Positions 24,333-56,037 of a stretch of 64,000 nt of DNA are shown here, piece by piece. The stretch is from Acinetobacter tianfuensis (GTDB taxonomy: Bacteria; Pseudomonadota; Gammaproteobacteria; Pseudomonadales; Moraxellaceae): positions 1 to 64,000 of the forward strand of contig NZ_RAXV01000015.1 of NCBI RefSeq assembly GCF_003611465.1, in the 5' to 3' direction. Under the pieces are notes generated by a model. That model was given only the letters and a program-made list of their open reading frames with translations, ran no database searches and was not told where the DNA came from. The translations under genes were made by a program, and so were the position numbers. How positions within the stretch are numbered: the stretch's first letter is position 1; the number at the start of each line of letters is the position of its first letter.

Positions 24333-26972
24333 TTATTCTGGGCTTGTTTCAGCTGTTTCCGTTTTTTCAGCAACAGCACTGTTCTGCTCCGCGTCAGACT
24401 TCGCTTTTTGCTCCGCTTTTTTCTTTTTTTTGTCTTTCTTCTTTTTTTTCTTTTTCTTGCTGTCTTCTTCTTCAAATTCAGCGCCGTCTTCCAGCGCTTG
24501 CCAGTATTCCAGCTGATCCATAACCGCAGCATAAATTGAATTTTTGCTGTAACGGCCTTTTTTATCCAATGTGCCTACAGGGCGGGCCATCAAAATTTCT
24601 AAGGCTTGGTCAATGGTATCAATAGCGTGGATGTGGAATTGACCATTTTTTACAGCTTCAATCACATCTTTGCGCAGCATGAGATGCTGCATATTTTGGC
24701 GCGGAATAATCACACCTTGCTTGCCTGTTAGACCTTGTAATTTGCAGGCATCATAGAAGCCTTCAATTTTCGCATTCACGCCGCCAATCGGCTGAACTTG
24801 ACCCAATTGGTTCATTGAGCCAGTAATGGCCCAGGACTGATCGATCGGCAGCTGACTAATCGCGGAAATGAGTGCGGAAAGTTCAGCGACTGTTGCACTG
24901 TCGCCATCAACTTGACCATAGCTTTGTTCAAAGGCTAAAGCTGCAGAGAAGTGGAGCATTTGTTCACGGCCAAAATGCGCTTTTAAGAAGCTGGACATGA
25001 GTAATACACCTTTGGCATGTAATGAGCCGCCCAGTTCTACGCTTCGTTCAATATCTAAAATGTCGCCGCCGCCTTGGTAAACGGAAGCAGTTAAGCGCGA
25101 AGGCAAGCCGAACTCAACATCTGCATAATGAATGACAGACAGAGCATTGATTTGACCTAAGCGGTGACCGCGGGTTTCAATCAGCTGTGTGCCGCGGGAC
25201 AGGTCTTGCCAGTATAGTTCACGTAAATAGCCTAAGCGGTATTTGCGGTGATCCAGCGCGGTATTGATATGCTGATCTGTAACTAAGGTATCGCCAGCTT
25301 GCGCGGCATGATGATGCGCTTCACGGATTAGATCGCCTAAAGTCAGCGCATGCAGCGACAGAGAACTTTGATCTTCGGCCTGACGGCTGGAATCTGTCAG
25401 TAAGGCAGACAGGGCTGTGCGGTCAAATGGCAGCAGTTTGTCTGACTGCACATAATCTGCAATGAGCTGCATATAAGCTTGTTCATTTTCTTCGTTGCGC
25501 TGAAGAGTATCGGTAAAATCTGCACGGATTTTAAATACGCTGCCAAGTTCAGGTTCAAGCTCTAAAATTTCATAGTAAATTTCAGGTTCTGCCAGCAAAA
25601 TCACTTTTATGTTTAGCGGAATGGATGCAGGTTCAATAGAAATGCTGCCCGTTAACGTCAGCATGTGTTCTAAAGAAGATAATTTTAATTGGCCTGATTT
25701 CAATGCGCGTTTCAGCCCTTGCCATGCATAAGGCTGTTCCAGCAGCTGTTCAGCTTCCAGCATAAGGAAGCCGCCATTAGCTTTGTGCAATGCGCCTGGA
25801 CGGATGAGCGTGAAATCTGTGGTAATCGTACCATTTTGTGTCAGCTGTTCTACATGGCCAAGCAGGTTGTAGTGTGTAGGGAAGTCATCAAAAATGACAG
25901 GAGCGCCTGAATTTGGTTTATGCGTCACAATAATGTTCGCTTGGTAGCGTGACGGCACACGGCTGAATACGCCTGGACGGAAGTCATCTTCTTCCTGTTC
26001 CAGCACCACTTCAACATTGTTAATGATGTCTTCGGCATAGTATTTTAGATAATTTTCTAGACCTTTGACTTCGCTGAATTTGTTCAGCAGCATGTCTATA
26101 CGCGGCATCACTACTTGTTTCGCGATATCACGGTTTAAGTGCTGTACTTGGTCACGGGCATCATCTTCAAGGTTGCCTAAATGCAGGCCGAGACGATCGA
26201 GCTTTTTATCCATATAGCGGATATTGGCCGCAATTTCAGCGCGTTCTTTACTGTTTAGCGCATTGATGTCTTCTTTAGACATTTCCTGCAATTTATTGTC
26301 TATGACATGTACTGGCACAAAACAGTGTTCATCGTCTTGAGTAATGAGCTTCAGGTCTAAATCTTCGCCTTCTTTCGTCAGTTCAAAAAGCGCCTGATTT
26401 TGCTCATCGCCAGTTTGCTGGCGGATCAACTCAATATTGTTATGATAAGTTTCAGCCGTAAAACGGCGTTCCAGCTGCTTTAAAACAGTCAGCCAAGTTT
26501 GATGCAGCTGAGTTTGAAATTTTGGCGCTTGGCCTGCTGGCAGCTGCAGTGCAATCGGCTGGCGTGAGGCTTGGAAATTATTGACGTATACCCAGTCATT
26601 TGGCGTTTGCATATTTTTTGCATGCTGCTGCAGCAAGCGTTTAATCATGGTGCGTTTGCCAAGGCCCGCTGTCCCCACAGCAAAAATGTTGTAGCCCGAA
26701 TATGGCAGGGCAATACCTGCCTCAACAGAAGCACGTGCGCGGTCTTGACCTAAAAAATTGTTCAGCGGTTTGAGTCTTTTGGTTGAAGTCGGTATTTTTT
26801 TCAGGTCTGTCAAATACGTAAGCTGTTCAGCTTTCAGTTGAGTTTTTACCAATGTTTGTTGGATCTCGGGTTGATCAAATACGCTGTTTAAGGTTTTTTG
26901 AAGTTCTTGTTCGTTTTTGGTTTCAGTGCTGGCAGAGAGTGAAGATTGAATATTGTCGAGTTTTTTAGTCAC
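24333..26972 (-). CDS. Lon-family ATP-dependent protease with lysine-rich tail
   Basis: The 879-residue protein belongs to the Lon-related (S16) group with a lid-inserted AAA domain, distinct from classical LonA. Its P-loop is GTAGLGKRT. The protease domain has the catalytic serine in VDGDSATVAEL and the lysine in GGVNAKIEGF. The last ~60 residues are unusual: almost unbroken lysines, then a low-complexity acidic end. The coding frame continues without interruption through that tail, so it is probably real, although a slippage-prone A tract could vary its length. It is not part of a visible operon. Confidence 0.88.
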   Translation of the reverse strand: MTKKLDNIQSSLSASTETKNEQELQKTLNSVFDQPEIQQTLVKTQLKAEQLTYLTDLKKIPTSTKRLKPLNNFLGQDRARASVEAGIALPYSGYNIFAVGTAGLGKRTMIKRLLQQHAKNMQTPNDWVYVNNFQASRQPIALQLPAGQAPKFQTQLHQTWLTVLKQLERRFTAETYHNNIELIRQQTGDEQNQALFELTKEGEDLDLKLITQDDEHCFVPVHVIDNKLQEMSKEDINALNSKERAEIAANIRYMDKKLDRLGLHLGNLEDDARDQVQHLNRDIAKQVVMPRIDMLLNKFSEVKGLENYLKYYAEDIINNVEVVLEQEEDDFRPGVFSRVPSRYQANIIVTHKPNSGAPVIFDDFPTHYNLLGHVEQLTQNGTITTDFTLIRPGALHKANGGFLMLEAEQLLEQPYAWQGLKRALKSGQLKLSSLEHMLTLTGSISIEPASIPLNIKVILLAEPEIYYEILELEPELGSVFKIRADFTDTLQRNEENEQAYMQLIADYVQSDKLLPFDRTALSALLTDSSRQAEDQSSLSLHALTLGDLIREAHHHAAQAGDTLVTDQHINTALDHRKYRLGYLRELYWQDLSRGTQLIETRGHRLGQINALSVIHYADVEFGLPSRLTASVYQGGGDILDIERSVELGGSLHAKGVLLMSSFLKAHFGREQMLHFSAALAFEQSYGQVDGDSATVAELSALISAISQLPIDQSWAITGSMNQLGQVQPIGGVNAKIEGFYDACKLQGLTGKQGVIIPRQNMQHLMLRKDVIEAVKNGQFHIHAIDTIDQALEILMARPVGTLDKKGRYSKNSIYAAVMDQLEYWQALEDGAEFEEEDSKKKKKKKKDKKKKKAEQKAKSDAEQNSAVAEKTETAETSPE

Positions 26973-51812: not shown

Positions 51813-52466
51813 TTAGATTTTTCTATATAAACCAACAACTTTGCCTACCAATCGGCAGTCTTCGCTAAGTTTTATAATTTGCTCTGGCCAATTGGGGTTT
51901 AATGGCTGTAAATACTTGTTATCACCTTCAATAATTAACTTTTTAAAGGTTGCTTCTGTTTCACCAAAGCAAGCAATAATGACTAAATCGCCAGTTTGCA
52001 AATCAAAAGTTTGCACTTCGGGATTTACATAAATGCGGTCATCTGGAAGAAAGTAAGGTGACATTGACATTCCAGTTACTTTTAAGCCGTAACCACTTTT
52101 TCCACAGTCTTTATTTGGTGGAAGCCATTCATCAATCTCAGTGTCTCTTAAAACAGTCTCAATTGATGAAAGTGAGCCTGCCGCTACCCATGAGATAACA
52201 GGAATAGGGCGGCCTTCTAAGGGGATTTTTTCAGATAGATCGATGTTGTTATCTAATTTTGATGGCGAGCCTTTGCCTGTTAAAAGCCAATCATCAGTCA
52301 CACCTAAAAAATCAGCAATTAATTTTAACTTAGCAGCTTTTGGCTCACTTTCTCCATGAACCCACTTTCCTGCCGCAACAGGTGACACAGATGCAGCACG
52401 TGCTAAAGCTGCAGGTGTTACACCTTTTTGTTCCATTTTTTGTTTTAAGCGTTCGTGGAAAGACAT
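51813..52466 (-). CDS. cI: CI-like repressor with S24 self-cleavage domain
   Basis: The 217-residue protein has an N-terminal helix-turn-helix (VTPAALARAASVSPVAAGKW) and a C-terminal LexA/S24 peptidase domain. The cleavage pair is A96-G97 in WVAAGSLSS, the nucleophile S134 is in TGMSMSP, and the base K175 is in ATFKKL, so RecA-stimulated induction is expected. Start at 52466 (MSFHERLKQ) has GGG eight bases before. It lies divergent from a cro-like gene with four operator copies in between. Confidence 0.92.
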   Translation of the reverse strand: MSFHERLKQKMEQKGVTPAALARAASVSPVAAGKWVHGESEPKAAKLKLIADFLGVTDDWLLTGKGSPSKLDNNIDLSEKIPLEGRPIPVISWVAAGSLSSIETVLRDTEIDEWLPPNKDCGKSGYGLKVTGMSMSPYFLPDDRIYVNPEVQTFDLQTGDLVIIACFGETEATFKKLIIEGDNKYLQPLNPNWPEQIIKLSEDCRLVGKVVGLYRKI

Positions 52467-52486
52467 AAAAAAACCCATCAAAAGTA

Positions 52487-52559
52487 TTAACCAATGTTAA
52501 TACATACAGTTGTAACTGTGGTTTGCGTGTGGTAACTTTGGTTAATTAACCGTAGTTAA
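52487..52559. promoter_or_regulatory. Right operator array (OR-like), four sites
   Basis: Sites lie at 52487 (TTAACCAATGTTAA), 52512 (GTAACTGTGGTTTG), 52532 (GTAACTTTGGTTAA) and 52546 (TTAACCGTAGTTAA). The last two abut. They share a TTAACYNNNGTTAA core with three sites at the left array, and occupy the divergent cI/cro promoters. Confidence 0.85.
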
Positions 52560-52568
52560 GAGAAAATC

Positions 52569-52757
52569 ATGAGACCGTCTGACCTAATGCGGTACTTCAA
52601 ATGCAAAACCAAGCGCGAACTGTCGTTAAAAACTGGTTATTCAGAAGTCACTTTATGGAAGTGGGAAAAAAAGGGAATCCCGCCGCGTACTCAAGCAGTT
52701 TTTGAATTAACCACAAAAGGGAAATTGAAGGCTGATTTAGAAACCTTAACTCCATAA
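52569..52757 (+). CDS. cro: Cro-like / YdaS-type regulator
   Basis: The 62-residue protein is a single helix-turn-helix: LMRYFKCKTKRELSLKTGYS and LWKWEKKGIPPRTQAVFELT place the recognition helix at about residues 22-33. This is the Cro position, divergent from cI with the operator array between. Like lambda Cro it should bind the same sites and favour lytic growth. It belongs to the short YdaS-like group rather than lambda Cro itself. Confidence 0.8.
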   Translation: MRPSDLMRYFKCKTKRELSLKTGYSEVTLWKWEKKGIPPRTQAVFELTTKGKLKADLETLTP

Positions 52758-52815
52758 ACATATTTTCACGTTTTCCAACAAATAGGTAAACGTGAATAAA
52801 TTCAAGGATTCACAT

Positions 52816-53316
52816 ATGAGCGAACTAACGCTAAGTCGTGAAGCAAAGAATGCTTTACACACAATGATTCATAACACACCAGGCATCGAGCCTAAAGACA
52901 TTGCTCAGGTGCTTGGTGTTTCTCATAAAACTGTTCTGAACTATGCAAATCCAAATATGGACCAGCATTTGCCAACAGTGAAAGCCATCGAATCAATGAT
53001 GACATTCACTCGCAATCCAGCATTGGTAAAAGCGTGGGCGCATAAATTGGGATTGATGTGTGTACCAGCAAACCAAGCTGAAGAAAAAGAACATCAGGTG
53101 AGTGTTTTAGAGCGTCTTCTTCAAATCAATATCAATAACGGTCATGTGAATCAGCATATTGCAGATGTTATGGCGGATGGTGTTGTAACGCCGTCGGAAT
53201 TGGCAGACACAGTTCAAATCTTGGAAGAGATGGAAGCAAACCTGCGCGGTTTACGTGTGGCTTTAGAAAAAGAGGCTGGGAAATATTTGTCAGCTTTAAA
53301 AAGAGAAAAAGCCTGA
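52816..53316 (+). CDS. CII-like phage regulatory protein
   Basis: The 166-residue protein has an N-terminal helix-turn-helix (IEPKDIAQVLGVSHKTVLNY) and long helical C-terminal region with a coiled section (SVLERLLQININNGHVNQHI). Position right after cro and before replication genes matches lambda CII or similar phage regulators. ATG 52816 has AAGGA eight bases in front; a GTG at 52792 is less likely. A terminator overlaps the stop codon, so transcription of the replication genes may need read-through. Confidence 0.72.
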   Translation: MSELTLSREAKNALHTMIHNTPGIEPKDIAQVLGVSHKTVLNYANPNMDQHLPTVKAIESMMTFTRNPALVKAWAHKLGLMCVPANQAEEKEHQVSVLERLLQININNGHVNQHIADVMADGVVTPSELADTVQILEEMEANLRGLRVALEKEAGKYLSALKREKA

Positions 53317-53336
53317 GAGTTGAGATCAGGCTTTTT
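53306..53336 (+). terminator. Terminator overlapping the CII-like gene's stop
   Basis: AAAAAGCCTGA and TCAGGCTTTTT pair across a nine-base loop. The stop codon TGA lies in the left arm. It separates the cro/CII region from the antirepressor and replication genes and is comparable in place to lambda tR1. Confidence 0.85.
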
Positions 53337-53364
53337 CAGTATTCAATTCAGAGGGTAAATCTTT

Positions 53365-54093
53365 ATGAATATGCCAATTATACCACATACGATTGCCGGT
53401 TCAATCAATCACATTGAAATTGCTCAGATTGTTCATACAGAACCGCGCAATGTGAAGCTTTCTATTGAGCGTTTAGCCAATAAGAATGTAATTCAACTAC
53501 CGCCAATGGCGAAAGTTGAAAACAAACAATCACTTAGTCCTAACCGTTTCTCTGATGCTTACGTTTTTAGCGGTGAACAAGGGAAATTAGACAGCATTAC
53601 CGTAGTTGCACAGCTTTGCCCTCAATTCACGGCGCTCCTGGTGAAGCGTTGGTATGAGTTGGAAAGCCAAACCGCAAAGCCTGTCGAACTCAGTCGAATG
53701 GAGCTAATCCAATTGGCCTTGGCTGCTGAACAAGAAAACCAAGCGCTTAAGGACCATGTCGCCGTGTTAGAGCCTAAGGCGCAGGTGATGGATGTGATTG
53801 CAGACACGGTAAACACTTATTCAATCCGTGATTCAGCAAAAACCATCGGTATTCAAGAATCAAAGCTCATTGACTTCATGTTGAAGAAGCACTGGGTATA
53901 CCGAGAAAACAGCCGTCACCGACGGTTATGTGCATACGCGCAACGAGTAGAGCAAAAGGTAATGGTAAACAAGGTTTCACAGGTGATTGCATGTGTAGAG
54001 GGTGACAAGGTGTACACCCAAGCACGCATTACAGCCTATGGATTAACAAGATTGACGGCGCTCGTTGCTGCTGCGGGGTTATTAAACAAATGA
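53365..54093 (+). CDS. Rha-like antirepressor with KilAC-type C-terminus
   Basis: The first ~80 residues match the phage Rha domain (IAQIVHTEPRNVKLSIERLA, then TVVAQLCPQFTALLVKRWYE). The last ~100 residues form the KilAC/ANT helix-turn-helix (TYSIRDSAKTIGIQESKLIDF and KHWVYRENSRHRRLC). Such hybrid proteins act as antirepressors or regulators in many temperate phages. It overlaps the replication gene by four bases. Whether it opposes the S24 repressor here is not known. Confidence 0.85.
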   Translation: MNMPIIPHTIAGSINHIEIAQIVHTEPRNVKLSIERLANKNVIQLPPMAKVENKQSLSPNRFSDAYVFSGEQGKLDSITVVAQLCPQFTALLVKRWYELESQTAKPVELSRMELIQLALAAEQENQALKDHVAVLEPKAQVMDVIADTVNTYSIRDSAKTIGIQESKLIDFMLKKHWVYRENSRHRRLCAYAQRVEQKVMVNKVSQVIACVEGDKVYTQARITAYGLTRLTALVAAAGLLNK

Positions 54094-54932
54094 GTCAATT
54101 CACTCCTAACAGTTTTCAGGTGCCTAACGCCTTTGTAGACGACGTTCTTTGTCAAATTGGGGATGTTGCTGCGAAGCTGTATTTGATCATCTGTCGTAAG
54201 ACACGTGGCTGGTACAAAGAGCATGATTCGATCTCTCTAAGTCAGTTCCAAAAGATGACAGGTAAGAGCCGTCCTACAGTCACAAAAGCAATTGCTGAAC
54301 TCATTCAAGTGGGCTTGGTAATTGAGTGTGGTTCTACCATTCATGGCAATACTTTTAAGCTGAATGACGAATGTGTTGTTAGTTGGAAAATGTCTTTCCC
54401 TAGTAAAAATTCTTTACTACCTGAAGGCACTAGTAAAAAATCTTTACTAGTAAAGAAATTTAACTACGCTAGTAAAGAATCTTTACCACCACTAGTAAAA
54501 ATTCTTTACACACAAAAGACACTATCAAAAGACACTCTACAAAATAAAAAAATAAATAAAAAAAGTAAGAGTGTTCCTGAACAACCTAAGGCTGAAAAAC
54601 CAAAAGCGGAAAAGCAAAATCAATTTGATCCAAAATCGGTTGAGTTACCAGCGAATGTAAATCGTGATTTGTGGATTCAGTTCGTGGACATGCGCAACAG
54701 CATCAAAAAACCTCTGACTGAAAACGCCGTGAAGTTGCTGATCAACAAATTAATTGGTTTCGGTGTAGGTGCAAATCAATCCTTGGAATCTTCGATCATC
54801 GGTAGCTACCAAAGCGTATACCCACCGAAGAATACACCCGCACCAGTTCAACAACCTTTGGAGCGCCGTCGTTTTGGCAGCCAAGCAAATCAACCAGCGC
54901 CAATGCGTGATGTTCAAGGAGAGTGCGCATGA
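54090..54932 (+). CDS. O-like phage replication initiator
   Basis: The 280-residue protein starts with a winged-helix domain (MSQFTPNSFQVPNAFVDDVL, KLYLIICRKTRGWYKEHDSI, SRPTVTKAIAEL), the pattern of phage replication protein O N-termini that bind the origin. A low-complexity middle follows, encoded by repeated DNA and an A-rich tract (54400-54572), then a C-terminal domain that would contact the loader. It overlaps the P-like gene start. The DNA itself probably contains the origin. Confidence 0.85.
   Translation: MSQFTPNSFQVPNAFVDDVLCQIGDVAAKLYLIICRKTRGWYKEHDSISLSQFQKMTGKSRPTVTKAIAELIQVGLVIECGSTIHGNTFKLNDECVVSWKMSFPSKNSLLPEGTSKKSLLVKKFNYASKESLPPLVKILYTQKTLSKDTLQNKKINKKSKSVPEQPKAEKPKAEKQNQFDPKSVELPANVNRDLWIQFVDMRNSIKKPLTENAVKLLINKLIGFGVGANQSLESSIIGSYQSVYPPKNTPAPVQQPLERRRFGSQANQPAPMRDVQGECA
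54400..54572. repeat. Probable phage replication origin: four iterons plus AT-rich tract
   Basis: Copies of CTAGTAAAnAwTCTTTACyA begin at 54400, 54430, 54469 and 54492, each internally palindromic (GTAAAGA/TCTTTAC). An inverted half site lies at 54448. A strand-asymmetric A-rich tract follows to about 54572. Iterons and an AT-rich tract inside gene O are the lambda-type origin layout. Confidence 0.78.
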
Positions 54933-55537
54933 GCAATATCCAATTATTTGAGCAAGCATTTGCGATTGATTTCCCAGTTGAAGTAGCGGACATGGTTCTT
55001 CAGCGCATGAGTGATCTTTACGGGTCAGCATTCACGAAAAACTTTGAAGTTTATGCGGATGAAGAACTTCGCCAATTGGCATGCACAGTCCTAAATGGCC
55101 TAACCCCGGCAGATATCGCACGCGGCTTAACTCGTATGAACTCTGAGGAATGGTGCCCGAAGAATTTACCGACATTCCGTAGCTGGTGTGAACAAGGCGG
55201 TGATTGGTGGACTGCTGATATGGCTTGGGCAAAAGCAATGCAGTTTGAATCAGATCCACAAACGAAGATCACCACACTGACTAAGCGGGTACTTGATGAA
55301 GTTCGCCATGTACTGACAGCAGAAGGGCAAAAATCGGCTCATTTCGCTTTCAAAGATATTTATGTGGATTATCTACGCCGCGCTAAGGCAAAGGGTATGA
55401 CGCAAGAAATGTGGGTGAAGCCTAAGGCTCCAAAACAGCTTGATAACCATGAGCGAAACCGTATTGGTGTTCCTTGCCCTCCAGAGCTGGTGGCAAAAAT
55501 AGGGAAGACATTTAATCGTGTGGGAGGTGGGGCGTGA
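54929..55537 (+). CDS. P-like helicase loader / replication protein P
   Basis: The 202-residue protein resembles lambda P in size and pattern: FEQAFAIDFPVE at the start, then LTPADIARGLTRMNSEEWCPK and LPTFRSWCEQGGDW, conserved in the replication-P family. P-type proteins recruit host DnaB to the O-bound origin. ATG 54929 overlaps the O-like stop as ATGA; GTG 54923 is the alternative. The C-terminus is basic (KPKAPKQ). Confidence 0.82.
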   Translation: MSNIQLFEQAFAIDFPVEVADMVLQRMSDLYGSAFTKNFEVYADEELRQLACTVLNGLTPADIARGLTRMNSEEWCPKNLPTFRSWCEQGGDWWTADMAWAKAMQFESDPQTKITTLTKRVLDEVRHVLTAEGQKSAHFAFKDIYVDYLRRAKAKGMTQEMWVKPKAPKQLDNHERNRIGVPCPPELVAKIGKTFNRVGGGA

Positions 55538-56037
55538 GTGTAATTTCTGAATACAAAGATTCAAGCGGTCTTACAACTTATCCAACGCCGTTTACTGATC
55601 ATGCGTTTGCTGGATTAAGTGAGCAAGAAAATATCGACTTCAAAATCTGGCTTGGTCTGATTGGTGAAAATGAAATTGAAATCGCGACTGATCAAAAGCT
55701 TGAGATTTATTTTGTTGAGGCATTCAAAACGCAGAAAGCGGATCGCTGCAAGCAATTCAATCCAGCTCAAAAGGCACCTCATATTAGCTTTTGGTTTCTA
55801 CAGGCTGAGGCGGGTCGAGTATGTGCGGGCTTGAGACATGGATGTGAGTTCTGGCAGCTGGTTAATTGGGTGCCTACTCAGGAGGAATTCAACAAGGCAT
55901 TCCCAGCAACTGAATCACTGGAGCTTGAATATGCGCCACCAATAGAGCCGGTGATCAAGTCAGAGCCAAAGAAGCCAGTTAAAGCAAAACCAGCGCGTGA
56001 TGAGTGGGCTTTGGATTTATTTGGAGGTGTAGCATGA
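55534..56037 (+). CDS. Hypothetical phage protein (167 aa)
   Basis: The N-terminal half contains YPTPFTDHAFAGLSEQE and WLGLIGENEIEIATD, and the C-terminus is proline/lysine-rich and ends DLFGGVA. It overlaps both neighbours by four bases. Proteins of this type follow replication P genes in many Acinetobacter prophages. I do not recognise a function; it may be a replication accessory protein. Confidence 0.68.
   Translation: MSVISEYKDSSGLTTYPTPFTDHAFAGLSEQENIDFKIWLGLIGENEIEIATDQKLEIYFVEAFKTQKADRCKQFNPAQKAPHISFWFLQAEAGRVCAGLRHGCEFWQLVNWVPTQEEFNKAFPATESLELEYAPPIEPVIKSEPKKPVKAKPARDEWALDLFGGVA

Follow-up and report, generated by a model that had tools for sequence, protein, structure and literature searches.

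In an origin placed within gene O, bacteriophage lambda carries four iterons and the Stx phages carry six, with an AT-rich region beside them (PMC7466680). In plasmids of the RepA_N family of the pSK41 type, four Rep boxes midway along the rep gene are bound by the N-terminal winged helix of the initiator, the part of the protein encoded by the origin is a linker, and A+T tracts matter; in those of the pPR9 type, the N-terminal domain and the origin have been swapped jointly for a phage-like domain of PF13730, with the C-terminus kept (both PMC5703833). The window analysed here, a stretch of 64 kb whose closest relatives in our searches are Acinetobacter (assembly of 3.46 Mb), very probably contains a lambda-type phage replication origin that lies inside its own initiator gene and would be bound by the N-terminal winged helix of the product. 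Judged by its sequence, it is an ordinary, sound origin of a kind already known. A further aspect is a link across families between the iteron word (the five-base half-site) and the recognition helix, which was not found in the literature searched and deserves a test.

The locus resembles lambda in several ways. Its iterons lie in the middle of the initiator gene, at the same place as the four annotated iterons of lambda; they are 15-bp palindromes of the 5-5-5 form, which in lambda reads CCCTC-AAAAC-GAGGG; an A-rich tract follows them; the next gene overlaps by ATGA; and the N-terminal domains can be aligned (hhalign probability of 93.8 over 74 columns for lambda O). However, the word is GTAAA in the window and CCCTC in lambda, and in the window the sites number five, two of the copies overlap, two reading frames are in use, and no lambda P partner was detected. 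The lambda-style origin proposed by the first-pass annotation is supported by the Phage_rep_O cut-off, the alignment with lambda O, the position of the repeats and the A-rich tract.

RepA N-terminal domains head the second-look list of folds for the window protein, whereas that protein lacks PF06970, its words are others and its C-terminal domain is different. Ten RepA_N plasmid genes were fetched, from 60 listed of 3,247 records. In five of the ten, the gene contains an exact 5-5-5 palindrome in repeated copies that are separated by A-rich spacers, and the words are CTGCA (L228), GTGTG (L229), GTCTA (L230), TTCTC (L231) and GTATG (L235). The palindrome of L234 is imperfect, two copies of GTATGAAAATCATAC can be seen by eye in L233, and L226, L227 and L232 gave no repeated palindrome under the same test. 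The exchange described for the pPR9 type is, by its description, of the same kind as that found among Acinetobacter prophages below, but concerns plasmids of staphylococci.

Initiator gene and its surroundings

The O-like gene is set in the early region of an Acinetobacter-type prophage, in the order repressor, Cro-like (a weak assignment), CII-like, antirepressor-like, O-like, the gene at the P position and Q-like, with an HNH endonuclease, terminase and head genes downstream. The features concerned are as follows.

51813-52481, minus strand: repressor with S24 peptidase
54090-54932, plus strand: O-like replication initiator gene, 280 aa, matching PF04492, phrog_678 and phrog_18020
54270-54311, plus strand: codons of the predicted recognition helix (residues 61-74, starting R61-P62-T63), from AlphaFold2 and residue alignment
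54387-54623, plus strand: codons of a low-confidence linker (residues 100-178; pLDDT <50 for nearly all), encoded by the array and the tract
54929-55537, plus strand: gene at the lambda P position, its start overlapping the O-like stop as ATGA; role assigned from position alone

The O-like protein belongs to the Phage_rep_O N-terminal domain family of Pfam (PF04492, E = 9.3e-9; 36.1 bits against a cut-off of 28.7) and matches the PHROG groups 'replication initiation O-like' phrog_678 (E = 7e-55) and phrog_18020 (E = 3e-45). For NCBIfam TIGR01610 (phage_O_Nterm) it scored 28.2 bits, below the cut-off of 45.5, and PF06970 (RepA_N) was absent among its Pfam matches at E 0.01. It is not a member of RepA_N, and it would work like such initiators in its N-terminal domain.

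AlphaFold2 modelled the N-terminus as a winged helix, with block means of pLDDT of 90 and 83 in the helix of residues 61-74. Foldseek found no match of the model in the PDB at E <=0.001. The top rows of the second-look aligner were the RepA N-terminal domains 4PQL (Z 9.9, rmsd 3.7) and 4PT7 (Z 9.5, rmsd 3.8), both rmsd values over 96 residues, with 5KBJ at Z 9.0, and ordinary winged helices came within about 1 Z unit of the RepA rows.

The first reading spoke of genes O and P. The next gene fits P by its position, yet no similarity of its product to lambda P was detected (hhalign probability of 1.5). It falls in phrog_1524, where the function is unknown, and its predicted structure is poor (pLDDT 45.9). 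As neither profile comparison nor structure prediction gave anything usable, the idea of a lambda P relative was dropped. In the annotated O genes that were fetched, the gene at the P position is a helicase, P, DnaC-like, AAA ATPase or primosomal gene. The phrog_1524 gene remains beside O-like genes whose N-termini are unrelated.

Iteron array and A-rich tract

Four 20-bp copies of a palindromic repeat had been noted at 54400, 54430, 54469 and 54492. All four are present there, but the total of four does not hold; a fifth, weaker copy (54447-54466, 75% to the reference) overlaps the end of copy 2. The copies start at 54400, 54430, 54447, 54469 and 54492, with spacings of 30, 17, 22 and 23 bp. 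The 15-bp palindrome GTAAA-N5-TTTAC occurs five times in the O-like gene, four times exactly and once with a single mismatch.

54403-54417: iteron core 1, exact GTAAA-N5-TTTAC, peptide SKNSL
54433-54447: iteron core 2, exact, peptide SKKSL
54450-54464: iteron core 3, one mismatch, peptide VKKFN in the other frame; overlooked earlier
54472-54486: iteron core 4, exact, peptide SKESL
54495-54509: iteron core 5, exact, peptide VKILY in the other frame
54512-54572, plus strand: A-rich, strand-biased tract, probable unwinding region (A 64%, T 15%)

No exact core exists elsewhere in the window, the four all being those of the array. The genome of 3.46 Mb contains 12, of which four lie within the 107 bp of the array and the other eight stand singly. 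Since the same genome has 25 occurrences of the reversed word, a single core is no rarity and only the cluster is rare.

The strand-biased A-rich tract lies directly after the last copy, as the first reading had it, and includes a tandem 13-mer (family D4) at 54513 and 54526. The A-T imbalance of the 60 bases from 54512 is the second-largest in the window. The strongest is found at 24414-24473 on the plus strand, where 60 bases contain no A and 43 T. In 54 of 55 non-redundant genes, A exceeds T on the coding strand in the 70 bases after the last iteron, and the mean AT skew, 0.36 there, is only 0.11 ahead of the array and 0.17 farther along. Directly after the last iteron, the window (from 54510) and lambda (L121) share 16 identical bases, ACACAAAAGACACTAT, in different frames. 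This match was equalled by 17 of 5,000 codon-preserving resamples, and of 54 other tracts, each compared with its own null, eight beat it at 0.05; a shared motif in the A-rich tract is thus only suggestive.

Arrays may grow and shrink by whole units. L086 differs from the closely similar initiators L093, L096 and L097 by an iteron unit of eight residues, GGSKESLL, and the close initiators L117 and L062 are one unit of 15 residues apart, HISKNSLPTEVKNFD.

Exchange of the N-terminal domain and the word

By protein homology, 58 loci (L003-L060) were collected, in which L031 is the window's own gene and L006-L013 are near-copies of it. A profile found the O-type HTH in 48 of the 58 and not in the other 10. 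Where residue 3 of the helix is P, the word is GTAAA in 32 of 35 loci and GTTAA in three, a count that includes the window gene and many near-copies. All eight loci with GKDA/GRDA helices carry GTCGG, and both of the RKT type (K) carry GTGGA. Among three NKDS-type relatives a blind word test gave no significant word; one of them, L044, has one exact GTCGA site.

An alignment of relatives had been suggested as a check, and its outcome agrees with the first-pass reading: the repeats are kept in all 35 P-type loci, relatives whose domain differs mostly have another word, and ten loci with a related C-terminus but another N-terminus are without the array. The C-termini of these ten are 38-100% identical to that of the window protein, and no half-site has more than one exact copy in them; two of them, L022 and L027, are nevertheless followed by a gene that shares about 95% identity with the next gene of the window. 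A C-terminal part like the window's is found with the GTCGG and NKDS types and with 22 GTAAA types, and an unlike one with 13 P types, including the short or cut frames L017, L042 and L043. Word and N-terminal domain therefore change together, whereas the C-terminus and the next gene can stay, and the array belongs to the N-terminal domain. In the nearest natural pair found, the N-terminal domains are 59% identical, and a helix with K and GTGGA stands against one with P and GTAAA.

Constraint on the DNA and alternative explanations

Codons were resampled with the protein fixed, from the O-like gene outside the array and from five neighbouring genes. The array score of 9 compares with a null mean of 0.44 and a maximum of 5 (0/5,000 resamples reached 9), and no more than one exact site ever appeared in the 5,000 trials. 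With any half-site allowed, the four exact palindromes stood against a maximum of two in 2,000. Copies 1, 2 and 4 are read as xGT-AAA (SKNSL, SKKSL, SKESL), whereas copies 3 and 5 are read as GTA-AAx (LVKKFNY, LVKILYT); as the third frame would bring TAA into phase, the array occupies both of the frames open to it. The peptide echo described before (SKNSLL, SKKSLL, SKESL) is real, but the frame is not uniform, and copies 3 and 5, one frame over, are a better argument for a need at the DNA level than the echo itself.

At identical amino acids in the window gene and 12 related genes (13 genes in all), the fraction of identical codons was 0.90 in the iterons and 0.95 in the tract, against 0.49 in the HTH, 0.56 in other parts and 0.59 in the C-terminus; at gap columns it was 0.76 (a small set of 84 comparisons). 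When 34 codons at a time were drawn at random from the HTH, the C-terminus and the other parts, the fraction was at most 71%, and 0/5,000 draws reached the iteron value. With one DNA word in two frames and frozen codons, it is a need of the DNA rather than of the peptide that, by these codon comparisons, sets the repeat sequence, as had been supposed.

That the repeats instead serve the protein as a peptide motif, for example in partner binding, is barely conceivable. SKxSL/VKxF and QK..SKDT stretches do recur in relatives, and nearly invariant residues stand in the aligned rows there; but the same DNA in two frames yields unrelated peptides, synonymous codons are frozen, and the stretch is low in model confidence, as disordered linkers are. 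The repeats are read in more than one frame in 13 of 17 non-redundant genes with GTAAA and in 18 of 24 with GTCGG, but in just one of seven genes when lambda and six RepA_N genes are taken; lambda and RepA_N being mostly single-frame, the two-frame argument is not general. An extremely improbable reading is that an array of RNA hairpins, or a palindromic element that is mobile, landed in the gene by chance. The RNA of the array folds far better than shuffled sequence (z -5.4, reached by 0/200 shuffles), and palindromic repeats tend toward good RNA folding. However, only the eight single cores are found elsewhere in the genome, and relatives keep the array in the gene after the HTH, with the word changing with the binding domain, which RNA folding alone would not explain.

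Very unlikely, too, is the reading of the palindromes as operators by which the O-like protein, or some other regulator, would control how the replication genes are transcribed, the origin being elsewhere. A winged helix bound to palindromes might act as a repressor as well, perhaps in a double role. Against this reading, they lie 310 bp inside the gene with the A-rich tract after them, as in lambda, and promoter-like matches in 52400-55600 number four against 5.7 expected; copy 5 is overlapped by a weak one of the minus strand (54528-54501).

For the preferred reading, a lambda-type origin, we infer the following course. The N-terminal winged helix would bind the five 15-bp palindromes, probably with one dimer to each, as their symmetry and lambda suggest; the array would form an O-some; the A-rich tract downstream would then open; and the C-terminal part would recruit the helicase of the host by way of a loader, for which the product of the next gene is a possible candidate. 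The origin stretch encodes a flexible linker, and its letters would thus be free to follow the need of the DNA.

Scans of viral contigs by DNA only

Viral contigs were scanned for two copies of GTAAANANTCTTTAC within 30 bp of each other. The pattern matched 60 viral loci and the reversed pattern none. A winged-helix initiator frame covers the word pair in 58 of the 60 (profile E 0.01, with a profile seeded from the same group); of the two exceptions, L099 has a frame that continues past the end of the locus, and L103 one of only 51 aa. The 60 loci form 25 clusters at 90% identity, and for these together with the window, matches at E 0.01 were to HTH_36 in 23/26, Phage_rep_O in 14/26 and RepA_N in 3/26. 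Identity to the window protein goes down to 16-23% for some scan loci.

A GTCGG scan gave 61 places, 39 of them with the helix, and its reversed control two. Scans for GTGGA and GTCGA were run as a prediction from Acinetobacter proteins, the reversed controls covering GTAAA and GTCGG only. GTGGA, the word of L048 (helix RKT), gave 11 places. Five have the helix, which is R-K-[TS] in each; one of the five, L190, repeats the protein of L048, which leaves four new loci, of two other kinds. GTCGA, taken from KDS helices, gave 30 places, three with the helix, all [RK]-D. GTCGA is a weak word, since the 27 matches without the helix look like chance in GC-rich or repetitive DNA.

Recognition-helix residues and the iteron word

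Among the scan loci with a helix, residue 3 is P in 55 of 58 for GTAAA, D, E or Q in 38 of 39 for GTCGG (28, 4 and 6), K in 5/5 for GTGGA and D in 3/3 for GTCGA. The GTAAA loci without P (L068, L085 and L113) are of one kind, TRVS, and the GTCGG exception (L136) has T. The association between residue 3 and word amounts to 1.14 bits over 38 clusters at 60% identity, in which one cluster mixing P and K kinds was counted as P; it was reached by 0/20,000 label shuffles, which ignore deeper kinship. Proteins over the Pfam cut-off for RepA_N occur with GTAAA (L117 SKPT, L100 SRPT, L078 SKPT) and with GTCGG (L130 GRDK, L147 SKEK, L148 KRDK), and those over the cut-off for Phage_rep_O with GTAAA (the window), GTCGG (L126, L129) and GTGGA (L048). 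Escherichia phage vB_EcoM_APEC, chosen by protein, has a GKDA helix and GTCGG, and SRPT goes with GTAAA in 80/80 loci, the best 80 of 340 and highly redundant.

A broad family sample (L236-L270), for which loci were returned for 30 and 5 places, fits less well. Its only P-type helix is the window's own, so the P rule was not tested there. D/E/Q helices had GTCGG in 0/6: the words were ACACC in L237 and GCAAC in L267, and L240, L244 and the second frames of L258 and L263 gave no significant word. K helices had GTGGA in 0/4 (L259, L260, L262, L269), and in these rows only L260 (NRKT) fits the full triplet; some of their frames are short or maybe not of initiators. In annotated phages fetched by protein, SRQN helices had AGACA (one) or TCTCT (two), and NKDA (two), NKDT (one) and SKQS (one) gave no significant word; neither did AQPT in the second, short frame of L354, which overlaps a gene annotated as Cro. 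By itself, helix residue 3 did not predict the words of the broad sample, and a code resting on it was given up; over the loci compared, the link between word and helix is a correlation.

Tentatively, we propose that winged-helix initiators across phage and plasmid families may share a set of 15-bp words within their own genes, and that the first residues of the recognition helix may largely set the word: [RK]-P-[TS] for GTAAA, [RK]-K-[TS] for GTGGA, and G-[RK]-D-A or S-R-[QE]-T for GTCGG. Six iteron letter strings, like a rule of this kind, were absent from the literature searched, outside which most subscription journals lay; TAGTARRR, a half-site attributed to pAD1, was not found in it and was dropped. 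Genes that carry their own probable binding sites offer many natural pairs of protein and DNA that can be read without experiment, and the recurrence of a word in unrelated phages, in step with few amino acids, makes binding specificity testable. Two more questions become open to test: how the specificity of an initiator shifts in concert with that of its origin, and which phages and plasmids can share, or exclude, each other. If the reading of helix and word is true, sequence could tell how specific the origins of such phages and plasmids are and which of them are incompatible.

Some further records were noted. NZ_CP080357.1 (L361, 4,627 bases, linear), a Klebsiella 'plasmid' record, is mainly a lambda-like block with HTH regulators, CII, an O-like gene, an ATP-binding protein and ren, in which the blind word is TACCT/TACCC; it is possibly a lambda-dv-like replicon or an assembly piece. 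The gammaproteobacterial Phage_rep_O loci L236 and L237 have blind-found 5-5-5 iterons of GTGTC and ACACC, respectively, with spacers that are mostly A-rich.
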